Below, piece by piece: positions 54,996 through 61,124 of a stretch of 64,000 nucleotides of DNA. The stretch covers positions 682,290 to 746,289 of the forward strand of contig JAWBNK010000001.1 of the NCBI GenBank assembly GCA_038827615.1, written 5' to 3'. The position numbers and the translations under genes were made by a program. The stretch's first letter is position 1. Every line of letters starts with the position of its first letter. The stretch is from Thermosphaera sp. Its GTDB lineage: Archaea > Thermoproteota > Thermoprotei_A > Sulfolobales > Desulfurococcaceae. Below the pieces are notes generated by a model. It was not told the DNA's origin and searched no databases. It worked only from the letters and a program-made list of their open reading frames with translations.

Positions 54996-55809
54996 AGGAG
55001 TTTTCTACGCACTTATCTTCAGAGAAGTTGCTTGGTTTAGAAGATTTATCGGTGATTATGTAACGATCTGGCTTCTTCCAACACTATACGGTGTAGGAGT
55101 TATTTTCCTTCCTTCCATAATGGGGGGATTGGATTTTGTGCTGGAGAGAATGAGCCATGTTTTCAACCGCGAATTAACATTGACGGATGCCCTCGCATTC
55201 AGCTTAAGCCTCTCGGGAATCATAACAATTGTGGCTGTCAATGTCGGCGATATCCTTCAAACATTATACGCGGAGTTTAAACTTTATGGTTCCTCTTTAA
55301 TGATATTGGAATCGACGAGTATACCGTCTTACGTCATAATTACCTCTCTTGTAAGACCCGTGATAATGACCCTCATGTCAACACTATATCTAGTCCCCAC
55401 CCTCATTCTGATACTTAGAGGTAACGGGGTCCTTCTATACCTATATTTGCTCACACCCTTATTGGCATGCTCGGTGATATTGGGTCTTTTATCAGGCATT
55501 CTCGGGTCTGCAATAGTTTTCTATACAAACGTTAGGAGGCCGTGGAGTGTTTCAAACATAGTCGTTCCCGCACTCCTGGCAGGCTCTGGAATATATATTC
55601 CATTGAAACTCGTTCCCTTCCTCCTTCGCTTTTTCGCCCTATTCACACCTGTTCCCTACACAGTAGAGTTAATCCAGTCGTTATTACTTCAAGGCCTTTC
55701 ACATGATTTCCTGGGACTCCTAGGAGTGATAACCGGGCTTTTCACGATTTACTATGTGCTCTCAATATGGGTTCACAAAACAGCTGAATTAAAGGTGAGA
55801 GGTGGTTGA
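54985..55809 (+). CDS. ABC-2 type permease, first of a pair
   Basis: About 274 residues from ATG 54985, inside the last codons of the ATPase gene (11-base overlap); TTG 54973 is possible. About six hydrophobic segments, with the ABC-2 permease pattern VRRPWSVSNIVVPALLAGSGIYIPLKLVPFLLRFFALFTPVPYTVEL near the end. Presumed to form a heterodimer with the next protein. Substrate unknown. Confidence 0.82.
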   Translation: MSGKGVFYALIFREVAWFRRFIGDYVTIWLLPTLYGVGVIFLPSIMGGLDFVLERMSHVFNRELTLTDALAFSLSLSGIITIVAVNVGDILQTLYAEFKLYGSSLMILESTSIPSYVIITSLVRPVIMTLMSTLYLVPTLILILRGNGVLLYLYLLTPLLACSVILGLLSGILGSAIVFYTNVRRPWSVSNIVVPALLAGSGIYIPLKLVPFLLRFFALFTPVPYTVELIQSLLLQGLSHDFLGLLGVITGLFTIYYVLSIWVHKTAELKVRGG

Positions 55810-56699: not shown

Positions 56700-57338
56700 A
56701 TGAGTAATAAGGCAATAATATTCGATCTTGATGGAACCCTCGTGGATAGTGTCCCATTAATTCTGAAATGCTATAGTGAAGGGTTGTCAAAACACGGGAT
56801 CACTCCTGTCAAAGAAAAGATACTCGCTCTTATGGGTCTTCCAACATTAAACGTAGTGCTTGAGTTAGTAGGCGGAAACATTAATGTTCGCATAGAAGAA
56901 GTGATTAAAGACATTTTTGACTGCTTCTCGAGAACCTGGATGAATGAATTGAGGCTGTACCCAGGCATCGAGGAAGTTCTCAACAAGCTAAGGGAGAAAG
57001 GGTACAAGCTGGGGATAGTAACCTCCTCGGAACAAGAGCACGCAGAGATAATGCTAGATTTTTTCAAGCTGAAAAAGTACTTCGACATTGTTCAAGGACG
57101 AGTTGATCACCTGAAACCCAAACCTTATCCCGACATGATTCTGTATGTTTTGAACCAGCTAAAAGTTGAATCGGAAAACGCACTCTATGTGGGAGACACT
57201 TTCCATGACTGCGTTGCATCGGCAAAGGCCAATGTAAAGTTTATCCTTGTTGAGAGGGGATGGGGAGGGAAATTCTTAAGAGGATGCCTCCCCTGGAAAA
57301 TACTTAATGATCTCAAAGAACTCCTGGTACTTACTTAA
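56700..57338 (+). CDS. HAD-family phosphatase (phosphoglycolate phosphatase-like)
   Basis: 212 residues. Motif I IIFDLDGTLVDSV (Asp9, Asp11), motif II VTSSEQEHAE, motif III lysine at DHLKPKPYP, motif IV YVGDTFHDCVASAKA: a complete HAD hydrolase with the small helical cap of the Gph/PpaX group. Substrate cannot be given. Its 3' end overlaps the opposing SDR gene by eight bases. The 111-base gap before it holds only a short CCGAG-GT-CTCGG hairpin (near 56602-56613), perhaps a terminator for the exporter operon. Confidence 0.87.
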   Translation: MSNKAIIFDLDGTLVDSVPLILKCYSEGLSKHGITPVKEKILALMGLPTLNVVLELVGGNINVRIEEVIKDIFDCFSRTWMNELRLYPGIEEVLNKLREKGYKLGIVTSSEQEHAEIMLDFFKLKKYFDIVQGRVDHLKPKPYPDMILYVLNQLKVESENALYVGDTFHDCVASAKANVKFILVERGWGGKFLRGCLPWKILNDLKELLVLT

Positions 57339-58326
57339 TATAACCCTTTGACCTGTACCACATGATGGTTTCTTCCAGTCCTTTTCTTAAATTGTACCTT
57401 GGAGAAAACCCGAGGAGCCTCTTGGCTTTTTCAATACTATAAGCTCTGTGTCGTGTAACTGAATCAACTATGCTCACCCTCATTAGCAAGTTGCTGGTCC
57501 CCGATAAAAGCGAGTAGAGATGAGTGAAGGAGAGAAAAAGTTTGGAGACTCGAGGACTAAGTGAATACCTAGGGGGCGGGTTTCCCGTAATATCCGACAA
57601 AATTTGGTAGACCTCATTATACGTGTAAGCTTTATCCTCTGAGACAATAAATGTCTGGTTTTCCGACTTATCGAATTTATCTAGAGCTAGTATGAAGCCC
57701 TCAGCAGCGTCGTCAACATGTGAAAACTGTATTAAAGTATCCCCTCGCCCTATCTTAAACTTCGATAGAAGACTTCGATTAGCGAAGGATGTAATGAACC
57801 AGTAAGAGACGTCATCAATGTTGCCCGGACCATATAGACCCGAGGGTCTGATTATAGTGTATGATAGCCCTTGAAGCCCTAATTTTTCCACCTCGCGTTC
57901 AGCAAGCAACTTAGAGCGTCCGTATTCAAATTGTGGTTTTGGAGGAGTATCCTCGTTCCCAGGCGGGTTTTCAACGGGTCCTATAGCCTCGGTTGAACTG
58001 CAATATATGAATCTCGATATTCCCTGCTTCAAAGCTAATTCAGCGAGAATCTTGGTGGCTTCAACATTGAGCTTGTAATACAGCTTCTTCTTTCCCGTAA
58101 AAGTGTAGTAAGCAGCTAAATGAATAATCACATCCGAATCTTTCACAACTTCATGAAACGTTGAGGGCTCATTAAGATCCATGTATACAGGTTTAACGTT
58201 TTTCTCCTCCAGGATTTTCTTACTCCTACTGTGGTAAGTGCCTTTGACACTGTAGCCCCTGCTCACTAGTTTTTCAATCACTCGAGCTCCAAGGAAACCC
58301 GTAGCACCGGTTACTGTTACTTTCAA
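57331..58326 (-). CDS. NAD(P)-dependent extended SDR reductase/epimerase, lux-like operon
   Basis: 331 residues. VTVTGATGFLGARVIEKL (NAD(P) site TGATGFLG, residues 6-13), catalytic YGRSK (Tyr135, Lys139), SSTEAIGPVENPP and RPSGLYGPGN. The dihydroflavonol-4-reductase/3-beta-hydroxysteroid dehydrogenase style of the sequence also recalls OleD, the 2-alkyl-3-oxoalkanoate reductase. Overlaps the LuxC-like gene by four bases, so it most likely reduces or epimerises a product of that pathway (inference). Confidence 0.85.
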   Translation of the reverse strand: MKVTVTGATGFLGARVIEKLVSRGYSVKGTYHSRSKKILEEKNVKPVYMDLNEPSTFHEVVKDSDVIIHLAAYYTFTGKKKLYYKLNVEATKILAELALKQGISRFIYCSSTEAIGPVENPPGNEDTPPKPQFEYGRSKLLAEREVEKLGLQGLSYTIIRPSGLYGPGNIDDVSYWFITSFANRSLLSKFKIGRGDTLIQFSHVDDAAEGFILALDKFDKSENQTFIVSEDKAYTYNEVYQILSDITGNPPPRYSLSPRVSKLFLSFTHLYSLLSGTSNLLMRVSIVDSVTRHRAYSIEKAKRLLGFSPRYNLRKGLEETIMWYRSKGYIK

Positions 58327-59813
58327 TTTGTTCTACCCGAGGAGAATTTAGTTATATTTAATAATTTTCCTTTTCTCCTAATGTACAAAGAGTAAGTGAA
58401 ATAGCGAGGCAGGAACTCTCCATCATATGGCTCCACCGGAGTTCTCAGAAACGATTCTCCAATGGGAACTATCCTGTACACGCCAAACAAGGAGAGAGCT
58501 GAGATGGCCGAGGCATAGTTTTTATCGTTCAAACTCATTGCAACGGTCTGGAATTTGTCTACTCCCTGGTTCGCTAGTTCTTCCATTAAGGATGAGATAA
58601 TCGTTTTAAGGTCCCCTATGTTTTCCACTACTAAGATTTCCGCAAATCTCTTTCTAAATCCCCAGTCATTCTTGAACTGATATGGATTGTTGTTGAAACG
58701 CCTCCACGAAGAGGTAACAGCTATCGTCCACGGGTTCTCGAGGTTTTTAGAATACAAAACATATGCTCCTTCCACCTCTAACCTCTTCCTCATTGAGATA
58801 AGATTATAGAGTTCTCCCTCTCCCACCTTCTTGGGGAATAATGCTCCCACCTCGTCCAGGAATTTACCCAGAACCTTAGCGAATTCCAAAGCCTTATTCG
58901 TTGAACCGATGAATATTACGTATGAAGGGGAGCTACATAGTTGCTGATCATAAATTACGATGTCCCATGCAAGCTTTCTAGCCAGTTCATCAGACGCAGA
59001 GTCCTCGTCGACTAGGGCTATTCCTGTTAATGGACCATTTATAACCAATCGAGGATGAAACGTGTTTCTAGAGATTTTTTCAATTATTACCTTTCGTCCC
59101 GGGTCTCCACCCCAATAATTAACAACGCCTATTCTTGTTTTAGTTAAAATGTAATCTAGGGCTTTGCTATCGTGTGCGAAATACGATATCAGTAATGCGG
59201 ACATCATCTCTTCTGCTCCATCGACTTTGTCCTCGTGGACTTTTGAAAAAGCCTTGTAGAGCTCCGCTATTACTGAATAGTTGGCAGACGAGGGTCTCAG
59301 TATGGTAACATTGCCGGTTGCAAGAGATGTTGCTAAGGGTAGTGCGGCAGGTATCACAGTATTTCCTGATGAGATTATAAGGGAGGAGCCAACGGGTCTA
59401 TTCCACAAGAATTCACCATCATCTACCTCGACTGGTTGATCTAGGCTTCTCCAGCCGCCTATTAATCCAGTGTCTAATAACCTCATCAAATTGTTTTCAT
59501 TGAATACGTGATGAATAAATTCTAAATCTATCCGTATGTTCTCTGGGCTATATCCTGTAGATCTCGAAATGACTGGTATCAGTTTTTCCTCAATATACGG
59601 CAAGGTCTCCTGCCACAACTTTCCAACTTCTCCTAGTATGCTAATCCTTTTCCGAACTCCTAATTCCACTAGTTTTTGAGATACGGGCACAGCGTTTTCA
59701 ACGAATTTTTCAATCCACGGGATTGTTGGTTCATATATTCCTTTATCTACGGGTTGCAACTCAATCTTAGAATAATACAATGGCCTAATCGGGTCTTTTC
59801 CTGTCTCCAACAA
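58323..59813 (-). CDS. LuxC-family acyl-CoA (fatty acyl) reductase
   Basis: 496 residues, TTG start at 59813 with GGAGGAGATG upstream. An aldehyde-dehydrogenase fold of the LuxC type: PVGSSLIISSGNTVIPAALPLATSLATGNVTILRPSS (coenzyme site), VNYWGGDPGRK and the catalytic Cys293 in VIYDQQLCSSPSYV, which forms the acyl thioester. In luminous bacteria LuxC reduces fatty acyl groups to aldehyde with NADPH. Here the acyl donor is unknown because archaea generally lack bacterial fatty acid synthesis. Its 5' end lies 29 bases inside the LuxE-like gene. Confidence 0.87.
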   Translation of the reverse strand: MLETGKDPIRPLYYSKIELQPVDKGIYEPTIPWIEKFVENAVPVSQKLVELGVRKRISILGEVGKLWQETLPYIEEKLIPVISRSTGYSPENIRIDLEFIHHVFNENNLMRLLDTGLIGGWRSLDQPVEVDDGEFLWNRPVGSSLIISSGNTVIPAALPLATSLATGNVTILRPSSANYSVIAELYKAFSKVHEDKVDGAEEMMSALLISYFAHDSKALDYILTKTRIGVVNYWGGDPGRKVIIEKISRNTFHPRLVINGPLTGIALVDEDSASDELARKLAWDIVIYDQQLCSSPSYVIFIGSTNKALEFAKVLGKFLDEVGALFPKKVGEGELYNLISMRKRLEVEGAYVLYSKNLENPWTIAVTSSWRRFNNNPYQFKNDWGFRKRFAEILVVENIGDLKTIISSLMEELANQGVDKFQTVAMSLNDKNYASAISALSLFGVYRIVPIGESFLRTPVEPYDGEFLPRYFTYSLYIRRKGKLLNITKFSSGRTN

Positions 59814-61083
59814 TCATCATCTCCTCCAATGTTCCGCCACAGGCTCGCTGAAGCTCCCATCCTTCATCTCTTGAAAGCCTTCTAACATATTTGAACTCCT
59901 TCCCGTAATATCTGTCTGAAATCTCGTACTTCATCACATCACCTGGGAAAAATACTTCGAGCCAGGAGATTGCTAACGGGTCATATATCCCCAATATTCC
60001 TTCTCTTCCAGGCTCTTCTATGAGTCGTAAGGTCTTGGGATCAATTAGGAACACCTCTTGAAGGGGGTGAGGTATCTTGTTCATCACACCATAATAGTCA
60101 ATCATTGCAGTCAAGGTTTCAGTCATTCCTAACACGTCCATGAATGGCGCAGGTTGCTCAACACCATTACGCCGTGCCTTGAAAAACCTCCTACTATAAA
60201 CTACGAGTTCATCATAACCTGGTATGCTGAATCCTTTGCTTCCTCCTCCAGTCACAATGACTCCTCCCTCGCCTAAATCCACAGGTGGCAATCCGTAGAT
60301 TAGTTTGCTTATAAGCTTTAATACCGGATTCATCTCGTTAAACTGCTTAGATAGCAGATATACCCCAGCCGGCGCAGTGAAGAAGAGTTTCGGCTCCTCT
60401 CTACTTTTGAAGAATTCCATTATAATTTTCTTGTTAGGAACGAGCTTTTTCCATTGAGAGCCGGTTGATTCCTCCTTTGATAACTCCATTCCATAGAGGA
60501 GAGGAATTCTTTTAGCCTGAAGCGCCAGATCCACAAATGCAACAAAGTTGAGCCTGCTTCTAAGCTCCCGCGCCGCCAGGAACAGCGCGATCCCCTCGCC
60601 CTGCTTCAACTCCCCACCATAGACGTACTCGAATAAGTTTACATTAGCCTTCGTCATCATAGCCAACTCTAGATATGTTCGAAAAACTCTTACAGGGACG
60701 TTGCTCGTCGTTCCACTAGATGAAAATGTAAAATGCCTCTCGCTCAAGACGTTATTGATCAAGAACTTTTTATATCCCTCTCCTCTCAACAAATCGGATG
60801 GAATAGCAAGCTTCACTAGATCCTCGAGCTCAGCTGACTCCGGGTAGATTTCTAGCCTAGAAAACAAATCCGAGTAAAAATCGCTCATATCGGAGAAGAA
60901 CCTAAGAGAGCTCCTTAAAAGATCTCTCCTCAGAGAAGAAAGCTGATCAGGTGATTTCTTGAACAGGGTTTTATCCCCCGAAAGCTCCCATAGTTTTCGA
61001 ACGTGTGGATGATTAAATATTGATGAACTTAATGCACTCTCCGTTATCTCGTCTATTGATGGTAGATCCTGCGGCGAACTCAA
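59785..61083 (-). CDS. LuxE-family acyl-protein synthetase
   Basis: 432 residues, TTG start at 61083 with AAAGGTGA upstream. The adenylate-forming motif is FTFSSSGTTSNVPVRVF (Ser/Gly/Thr-rich loop at 121-127) and a later VLGMTET matches the D-x-G-M-T-E motif. The C-terminal part has EVFFPGDVMKYEISDRYYG, a LuxE-type segment. LuxE activates a fatty acid as acyl-AMP and passes it to LuxC. It heads the LuxE-LuxC-SDR operon. Gene family is clear; physiological substrate is not. Confidence 0.85.
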   Translation of the reverse strand: MSSPQDLPSIDEITESALSSSIFNHPHVRKLWELSGDKTLFKKSPDQLSSLRRDLLRSSLRFFSDMSDFYSDLFSRLEIYPESAELEDLVKLAIPSDLLRGEGYKKFLINNVLSERHFTFSSSGTTSNVPVRVFRTYLELAMMTKANVNLFEYVYGGELKQGEGIALFLAARELRSRLNFVAFVDLALQAKRIPLLYGMELSKEESTGSQWKKLVPNKKIIMEFFKSREEPKLFFTAPAGVYLLSKQFNEMNPVLKLISKLIYGLPPVDLGEGGVIVTGGGSKGFSIPGYDELVVYSRRFFKARRNGVEQPAPFMDVLGMTETLTAMIDYYGVMNKIPHPLQEVFLIDPKTLRLIEEPGREGILGIYDPLAISWLEVFFPGDVMKYEISDRYYGKEFKYVRRLSRDEGWELQRACGGTLEEMMIVGDRKRPD

Positions 61084-61104
61084 TCATTTTCACCTTTGAA
61101 AATA

Positions 61105-61124
61105 AATGATTAATATTAATCATT
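61105..61124. promoter_or_regulatory. Perfect 20-bp palindrome upstream of the LuxE-LuxC-SDR operon
   Basis: AATGATTAATATTAATCATT is a perfect palindrome (checked base by base) 22-41 bases before the LuxE-like start codon, across the expected TATA position. Probably an operator, or an AT-rich promoter element that happens to be symmetrical. Confidence 0.5.

Follow-up and report, generated by a model that had tools for sequence, protein, structure and literature searches.

A conserved LuxE-LuxC-SDR operon of Thermoproteota is a putative carboxylate-to-alcohol reductase system

The window analyzed here, a 64,000-nucleotide stretch of the genome of Thermosphaera sp. (contig JAWBNK010000001.1, positions 682,290 to 746,289), carries an operon of three genes for a LuxE-type acyl-protein synthetase, a LuxC-family acyl reductase, and an extended SDR. 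This operon probably encodes a self-contained carboxylate-to-alcohol reductase, in which a carboxylate would be converted to acyl-S-LuxE, then to an aldehyde, and then to an alcohol. To our knowledge, LuxE and LuxC are known almost exclusively from luminescence, plus a few flagellin islands, and a literature search on archaeal LuxE and LuxC found nothing. We also tentatively suggest that the trio may constitute an acyl-protein reductase system specific to archaea, one that diverged deeply from all known LuxE and LuxC and turns an acid into an alcohol without acyl carrier protein (ACP).

Results and discussion

Organization of the operon and proposed reactions

All three ORFs were found in the place originally given, where they lie on the minus strand and overlap tightly. 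The LuxE-type acyl-AMP/acyl-protein synthetase gene (59785-61083) has a TTG start and encodes 432 amino acids, the LuxC-family gene (58323-59813) encodes 496 amino acids, and the SDR gene (57331-58326), whose product we propose to be an aldehyde reductase, encodes 331 amino acids. LuxE and LuxC overlap by 29 bases, and LuxC and the SDR by 4 bases. A gene for a HAD phosphatase converges on the SDR gene with an 8-base overlap (57331-57338); this neighbor is kept within the genus, and NM3 (L035) has a HAD homologue next to its trio.

In the proposed route, the LuxE-type enzyme would use ATP to adenylate a free carboxylic acid, giving acyl-AMP, and the acyl group would then be moved onto Cys415 near the C terminus of the same enzyme. 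LuxC would accept the acyl group on Cys293 and reduce it with NADPH to the aldehyde. In the third conversion, the extended SDR would form the alcohol by reducing this aldehyde at the expense of NAD(P)H. By analogy, we infer that the reactions run in the direction of reduction rather than oxidation.

Distribution and history in Thermoproteota

Beyond the operon of the original prediction, the trio proved to be a conserved module of Thermoproteota, with the gene order LuxE, LuxC, and SDR in 26 loci from several families and with genes that mostly overlap or abut. A 27th locus, in MAG B8_G17, runs on into a second contig, and in G153 the LuxC-SDR pair lies approximately 27 kb away from LuxE. The SDR adjoined LuxC in 28 of the 28 loci checked. 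In G152, a 285-amino acid ORF on the opposite strand (L020:6977-7834) stands between LuxC and the SDR, the sole split of this pair in the 26 contiguous loci. The flanks of the loci differ between families, and their comparison revealed no partner beyond the trio that recurs across families and no conserved neighbor linked to a substrate. Glutaredoxin and ferredoxin-thioredoxin reductase in the flanks of family f16 and 2-phosphosulfolactate phosphatase in those of family f18 were considered as further partners and rejected, as neither set is common to other families.

The linkage of LuxE and LuxC is obligate. Across 398 evenly sampled genomes of Thermoproteota, LuxE gave strong matches in 25 and LuxC was present in 23, all 23 of which were within the 25 (hypergeometric P 2e-35, uncorrected for shared ancestry). 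Both LuxE genes from the genomes without LuxC are decaying: at 123 positions that are invariant in the other 27 LuxE, they carry 11 and 22 changes, whereas intact copies carry 0 to 7 in a leave-one-out comparison, and in one of the two copies Cys415 is replaced by Ser and the GMTE motif is lost. The linkage, and the decay of LuxE where LuxC is missing, are as a single pathway predicts. In G101, from another family of the same order, we found a remnant LuxE-like pseudogene (L026:8193-8473) consisting only of broken fragments with several stops, and no LuxC; this remnant is another loss of the LuxE-LuxC pathway.

The gene trees of LuxE, LuxC, and the SDR agree on the main groups, and all three nest the window genus inside family f7, beside g48. 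LuxE and LuxC were absent from the sampled sister genera of the family to which the window genus belongs. Because the trees agree and the genus is nested in another family, the simplest reading would be that the trio was transferred as a unit from an f7-like donor, although multiple losses are possible. The LuxC and LuxE of the archaea group together as one clade, well apart from their bacterial counterparts and on very long branches; for attachment of this long archaeal branch near the TPP-type or the lux-type LuxC/LuxE, the AU p values were 0.36 and 0.39, which favors neither placement. No viral carriage was detected among 2.9 million viral contigs.

Identity of the LuxC-family and LuxE-type proteins

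The LuxC protein matched PF05893 with 128 bits (E 6e-37; curated cut-off, 21 bits), and the best match of its model among 350,542 PDB chains was the LuxC chain 7xc6_A (TM 0.72-0.74, rmsd 3.1). Its catalytic Cys293, in the motif YDQQLCSSP, is invariant in 24 orthologues. Family membership is secure by profile and fold, and the original identification of an acyl reductase with a catalytic Cys293 was borne out.

The LuxE label required a longer route. The window protein itself had no Pfam match whatsoever, including PF04443, the family under which it had first been named, and in NCBIfam its only match was a weak one (E 0.002), to a family of AMP-dependent CoA ligases. We gathered LuxE orthologues from Thermoproteota genomes and built a profile (A4) from 29 of them; its best PDB match was the solved LuxE 7xc6_E (E 4.5e-4), followed by PaaK ligases. 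PF04443 was matched by 4 of the 29 orthologues (E up to 1; best E 9e-6). The archaeal LuxE is very divergent, with most members missing PF04443, which weighs against the carboxylate-to-alcohol reading.

The AlphaFold2 model of the LuxE-like protein (pLDDT 87) displayed an ANL adenylation fold of the PaaK type, and the sequence contains the P-loop SSSGTTS (121-127), GMTET (319-323), and PGD (380-382), with Cys415 as the predicted acyl acceptor. Cys415 aligns with the single C-terminal cysteine of all seven bacterial LuxE and is among approximately 15 residues identical across 13 archaeal and 7 bacterial LuxE sequences. The matching cysteine of 7xc6_E, in GCSLSM, is residue 364 by count along the aligned stretch, which we take to be the published acyl-accepting cysteine of LuxE, also numbered 364. 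The tail carrying Cys415 is flexible in the model (pLDDT 39-59).

It could be argued that no acyl-protein intermediate is formed, the LuxE-like protein acting as a CoA ligase and LuxC reducing acyl groups in a CoA-dependent manner. The top Foldseek matches of the model were indeed PaaK CoA ligases, with 7xc6_E outside the top 50, and LuxC-family enzymes can accept acyl-CoA. However, the window protein lacks AMP-binding_C_2, the C-terminal domain of PaaK-type enzymes, which is present in an archaeal PaaK homologue (L083), and it has the cysteine common to LuxE, which one of the two decaying copies no longer carries. We therefore regard a CoA ligase as quite unlikely. Given the profile match to 7xc6_E, the conserved Cys415, and the missing PaaK-type C-terminal domain, the window protein is best described as a predicted acyl-protein synthetase of the LuxE type that represents a new branch in archaea; the original label holds through the family profile, the fold, and the cysteine, but not through a Pfam match of the protein itself.

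Related bacterial operons under TPP riboswitches

Among plasmids, the sole match to the archaeal LuxC was in Niallia taxi (24.6% identity). On its plasmid pMEGANia (L099:2474-8066), two TPP riboswitches precede genes for ThiW, a nucleobase-type permease, LuxE, LuxC, and a FabG-like SDR. Related operons with the order LuxE, LuxC, and SDR were found in Lactiplantibacillus, Levilactobacillus, Azospirillum, Pantoea, and Priestia (L125, L126, L127, L128, and L129), and in Azospirillum and Priestia ABC transporter genes, including one for an NMT1/THI5-like binding protein, lie between LuxC and the SDR. A TPP riboswitch accompanied all six bacterial operons examined, of which the two lactobacillus records have one cassette in common, and that of Priestia, at 49 bits (E 1e-8), fell short of the gathering threshold. 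For these bacterial operons, whose transporters are of the thiamin-precursor type, it is natural to infer a salvage route from a carboxylated thiamin precursor to the alcohol, a route for which we found no description in the open-access literature searched. Their membership in TPP-riboswitch regulons points to small acids.

The same use could be imagined for the window operon, with a carboxylated moiety of thiamin (pyrimidine carboxylate or thiazole acetate) reduced to the alcohol. The riboswitches of the six bacterial operons, the ThiW gene in one of them, and the NMT1/THI5-like binding proteins in two would favor it. Yet the window genome, which is 99.98% complete, has no TMP-TENI protein (ThiE) and no ThiN protein of ThiDN length, and its sole match to the ThiD family is weak (E 8e-7). 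ThiE and a strong ThiD were likewise missing from the congener G082 and from G276, G344, and G374, and the scanned archaeal operons had no TPP riboswitch nearby. Given the lack of ThiE and ThiDN and the weakness of the ThiD-family match, salvage of thiamin moieties was rejected as the use of the window operon; for the pyrimidine and thiazole moieties this idea is largely refuted, conversion of thiamin acetic acid to thiamin is still conceivable, and thiamin-precursor salvage as a whole is highly improbable here.

A perfect 20-bp palindrome, AATGATTAATATTAATCATT (61105-61124), lies 22 to 41 nt upstream of the LuxE start codon. Perfect palindromes of at least 20 bp are expected 0.04 times per window, so that one would seldom arise by chance; the genome has no second exact copy, and near-copies in it have three mismatches. 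The palindrome originally placed over the promoter is thus perfect and upstream of LuxE, but it is not conserved in two congeners, and it may be a candidate operator of the operon. Its assignment as a thiamin-regulon operator was rejected, as the ThiN-domain regulator of the genome adjoins PanB- and PanE-like genes instead. This sole ThiN-domain HTH regulator (C1, approximately 468173-470833; L131:8174-10834) overlaps or abuts the genes in question, which read as those for ketopantoate hydroxymethyltransferase and ketopantoate reductase, and since the arrangement occurs in all three genus members, the regulator may control CoA rather than thiamin genes. A second perfect palindrome in the window, TGGAATATATATTCCA (16 bp, 55587-55602), is inside an ABC transporter permease gene; approximately one is expected by chance.

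Role of the SDR

The SDR matched PF01370 with 144 bits and contains TGATGFLG, Ser110/Ser111, and the catalytic Tyr135-x3-Lys139. The intact YxxxK motif of the original description is present, and TGxxGxxG and Tyr-x3-Lys were kept in 26 of 26 orthologues. The nearest solved relative by sequence was 3wj7, a "putative oxidoreductase" (E 2e-27, residues 4-331), which we take to be Gluconobacter Gox2253, an NADPH-dependent aldehyde reductase. The SDR family also includes epimerases and ketone reductases, which counts against the carboxylate-to-alcohol reading.

In an alternative reading, the SDR would act not on the aldehyde but on a ketone or hydroxyl group at another position of the molecule, in the manner of OleD or HpnA, and the operon would end at the aldehyde or at a tailored product. 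In NCBIfam, the SDR resembled HpnA (143 bits) and OleD (105 bits; equivalog cut-off, 580), but both scores are far below the cut-off, and the OleD-like role first suggested was not upheld, HpnA scoring higher. Moreover, an ole or hpn pathway would need a further gene, and no additional gene accompanies the trio in every family; in the bacterial operons, the corresponding role falls to an SDR from a different subclass. An OleD- or HpnA-like function is thus fairly doubtful, and the notion that the SDR is a partner acting on the product of LuxE and LuxC was supported. Since the bacterial SDR is classical (255 amino acids, FabG-like) and the archaeal one extended, different SDR classes serve in LuxE-LuxC-SDR operons of one kind. 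Bacterial operons with another SDR class and TPP riboswitches are as expected if acid-to-alcohol reduction is the purpose.

Nature of the acid

Characterized LuxE-LuxC pairs use long-chain fatty acids, and the archaeal operon could likewise convert a fatty, phytanoyl, or polyprenoid acid to a long-chain aldehyde or alcohol destined for lipids of the membrane or cell surface. The NCBIfam model for long-chain LuxC did detect the window protein, but with 56 bits against a cut-off of 750. No ACP (PF00550) was present in the window genome. At the GMTE site, archaeal LuxE, most TPP-linked LuxE, and PaaK share GMTE, whereas lux LuxE has FNQVE. Genes for LuxE and LuxC also occur with those for ACP and 3-oxoacyl-ACP reductase in flagellin islands of Aeromonas, for which liposugar synthesis has been proposed (PMC7874193), and this lends the long-chain pathway some plausibility. 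Overall, we consider it rather unlikely, and the fatty, phytanoyl, or isoprenoid substrate first suggested gained no support. The GMTE motif, the lack of ACP, and the parallel with the thiamin-linked operons make us lean slightly toward an acid that is small or aromatic, and away from long-chain fatty acids, as the substrate of the proposed carboxylate-to-alcohol reductase.

Significance and comparison with known systems

The trio is an obligate unit in several Thermoproteota families, closed genomes included, and we found no described product for it. The TPP-controlled operons of bacteria suggest that the general role of the module is carboxylate-to-alcohol reduction, of which the lux enzymes would be a special case. 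If the trio is indeed an archaea-specific system, protein-bound acyl reduction would be a general metabolic module, with vitamin-precursor salvage in bacteria, an undescribed use in Thermoproteota, and light production as a late special use. The three thermostable proteins make the pathway amenable to testing in purified form.

Compared with the LuxC-LuxE fatty acid reductase of luminous bacteria (7xc6; Photobacterium and Photorhabdus lux), the archaeal operon is alike in the LuxE fold with its C-terminal cysteine, the LuxC fold with its YDQQ-C cysteine, and the adjacency of the genes. It differs in the gene order (LuxE, LuxC, SDR) with an extra SDR, the canonical GMTE motif of its LuxE, the very long branches of its proteins, and the lack of both ACP and luciferase in the genome; the absence of luciferase, noted originally from the window, extends to the whole genome (PF00296). 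The TPP operons on bacterial plasmids share the order LuxE, LuxC, and SDR, the absence of luciferase, and the C-terminal cysteine, with a GMTE or GITE motif, but have a classical FabG-like SDR, transporters, TPP control, and a LuxC only approximately 25% identical. The Aeromonas flagellin glycosylation island (PMC7874193) resembles the archaeal operon in having LuxE and LuxC without luciferase and a reductase gene, but there they are part of an extensive glycan island that includes ACP and glycosyltransferases, and the archaeal trio has no such companions. PaaK-type aryl-CoA ligases have the ANL fold, the P-loop, and GMTE-type motifs in common with the archaeal LuxE, which by contrast lacks the CoA-ligase C-terminal domain and carries the C-terminal cysteine.
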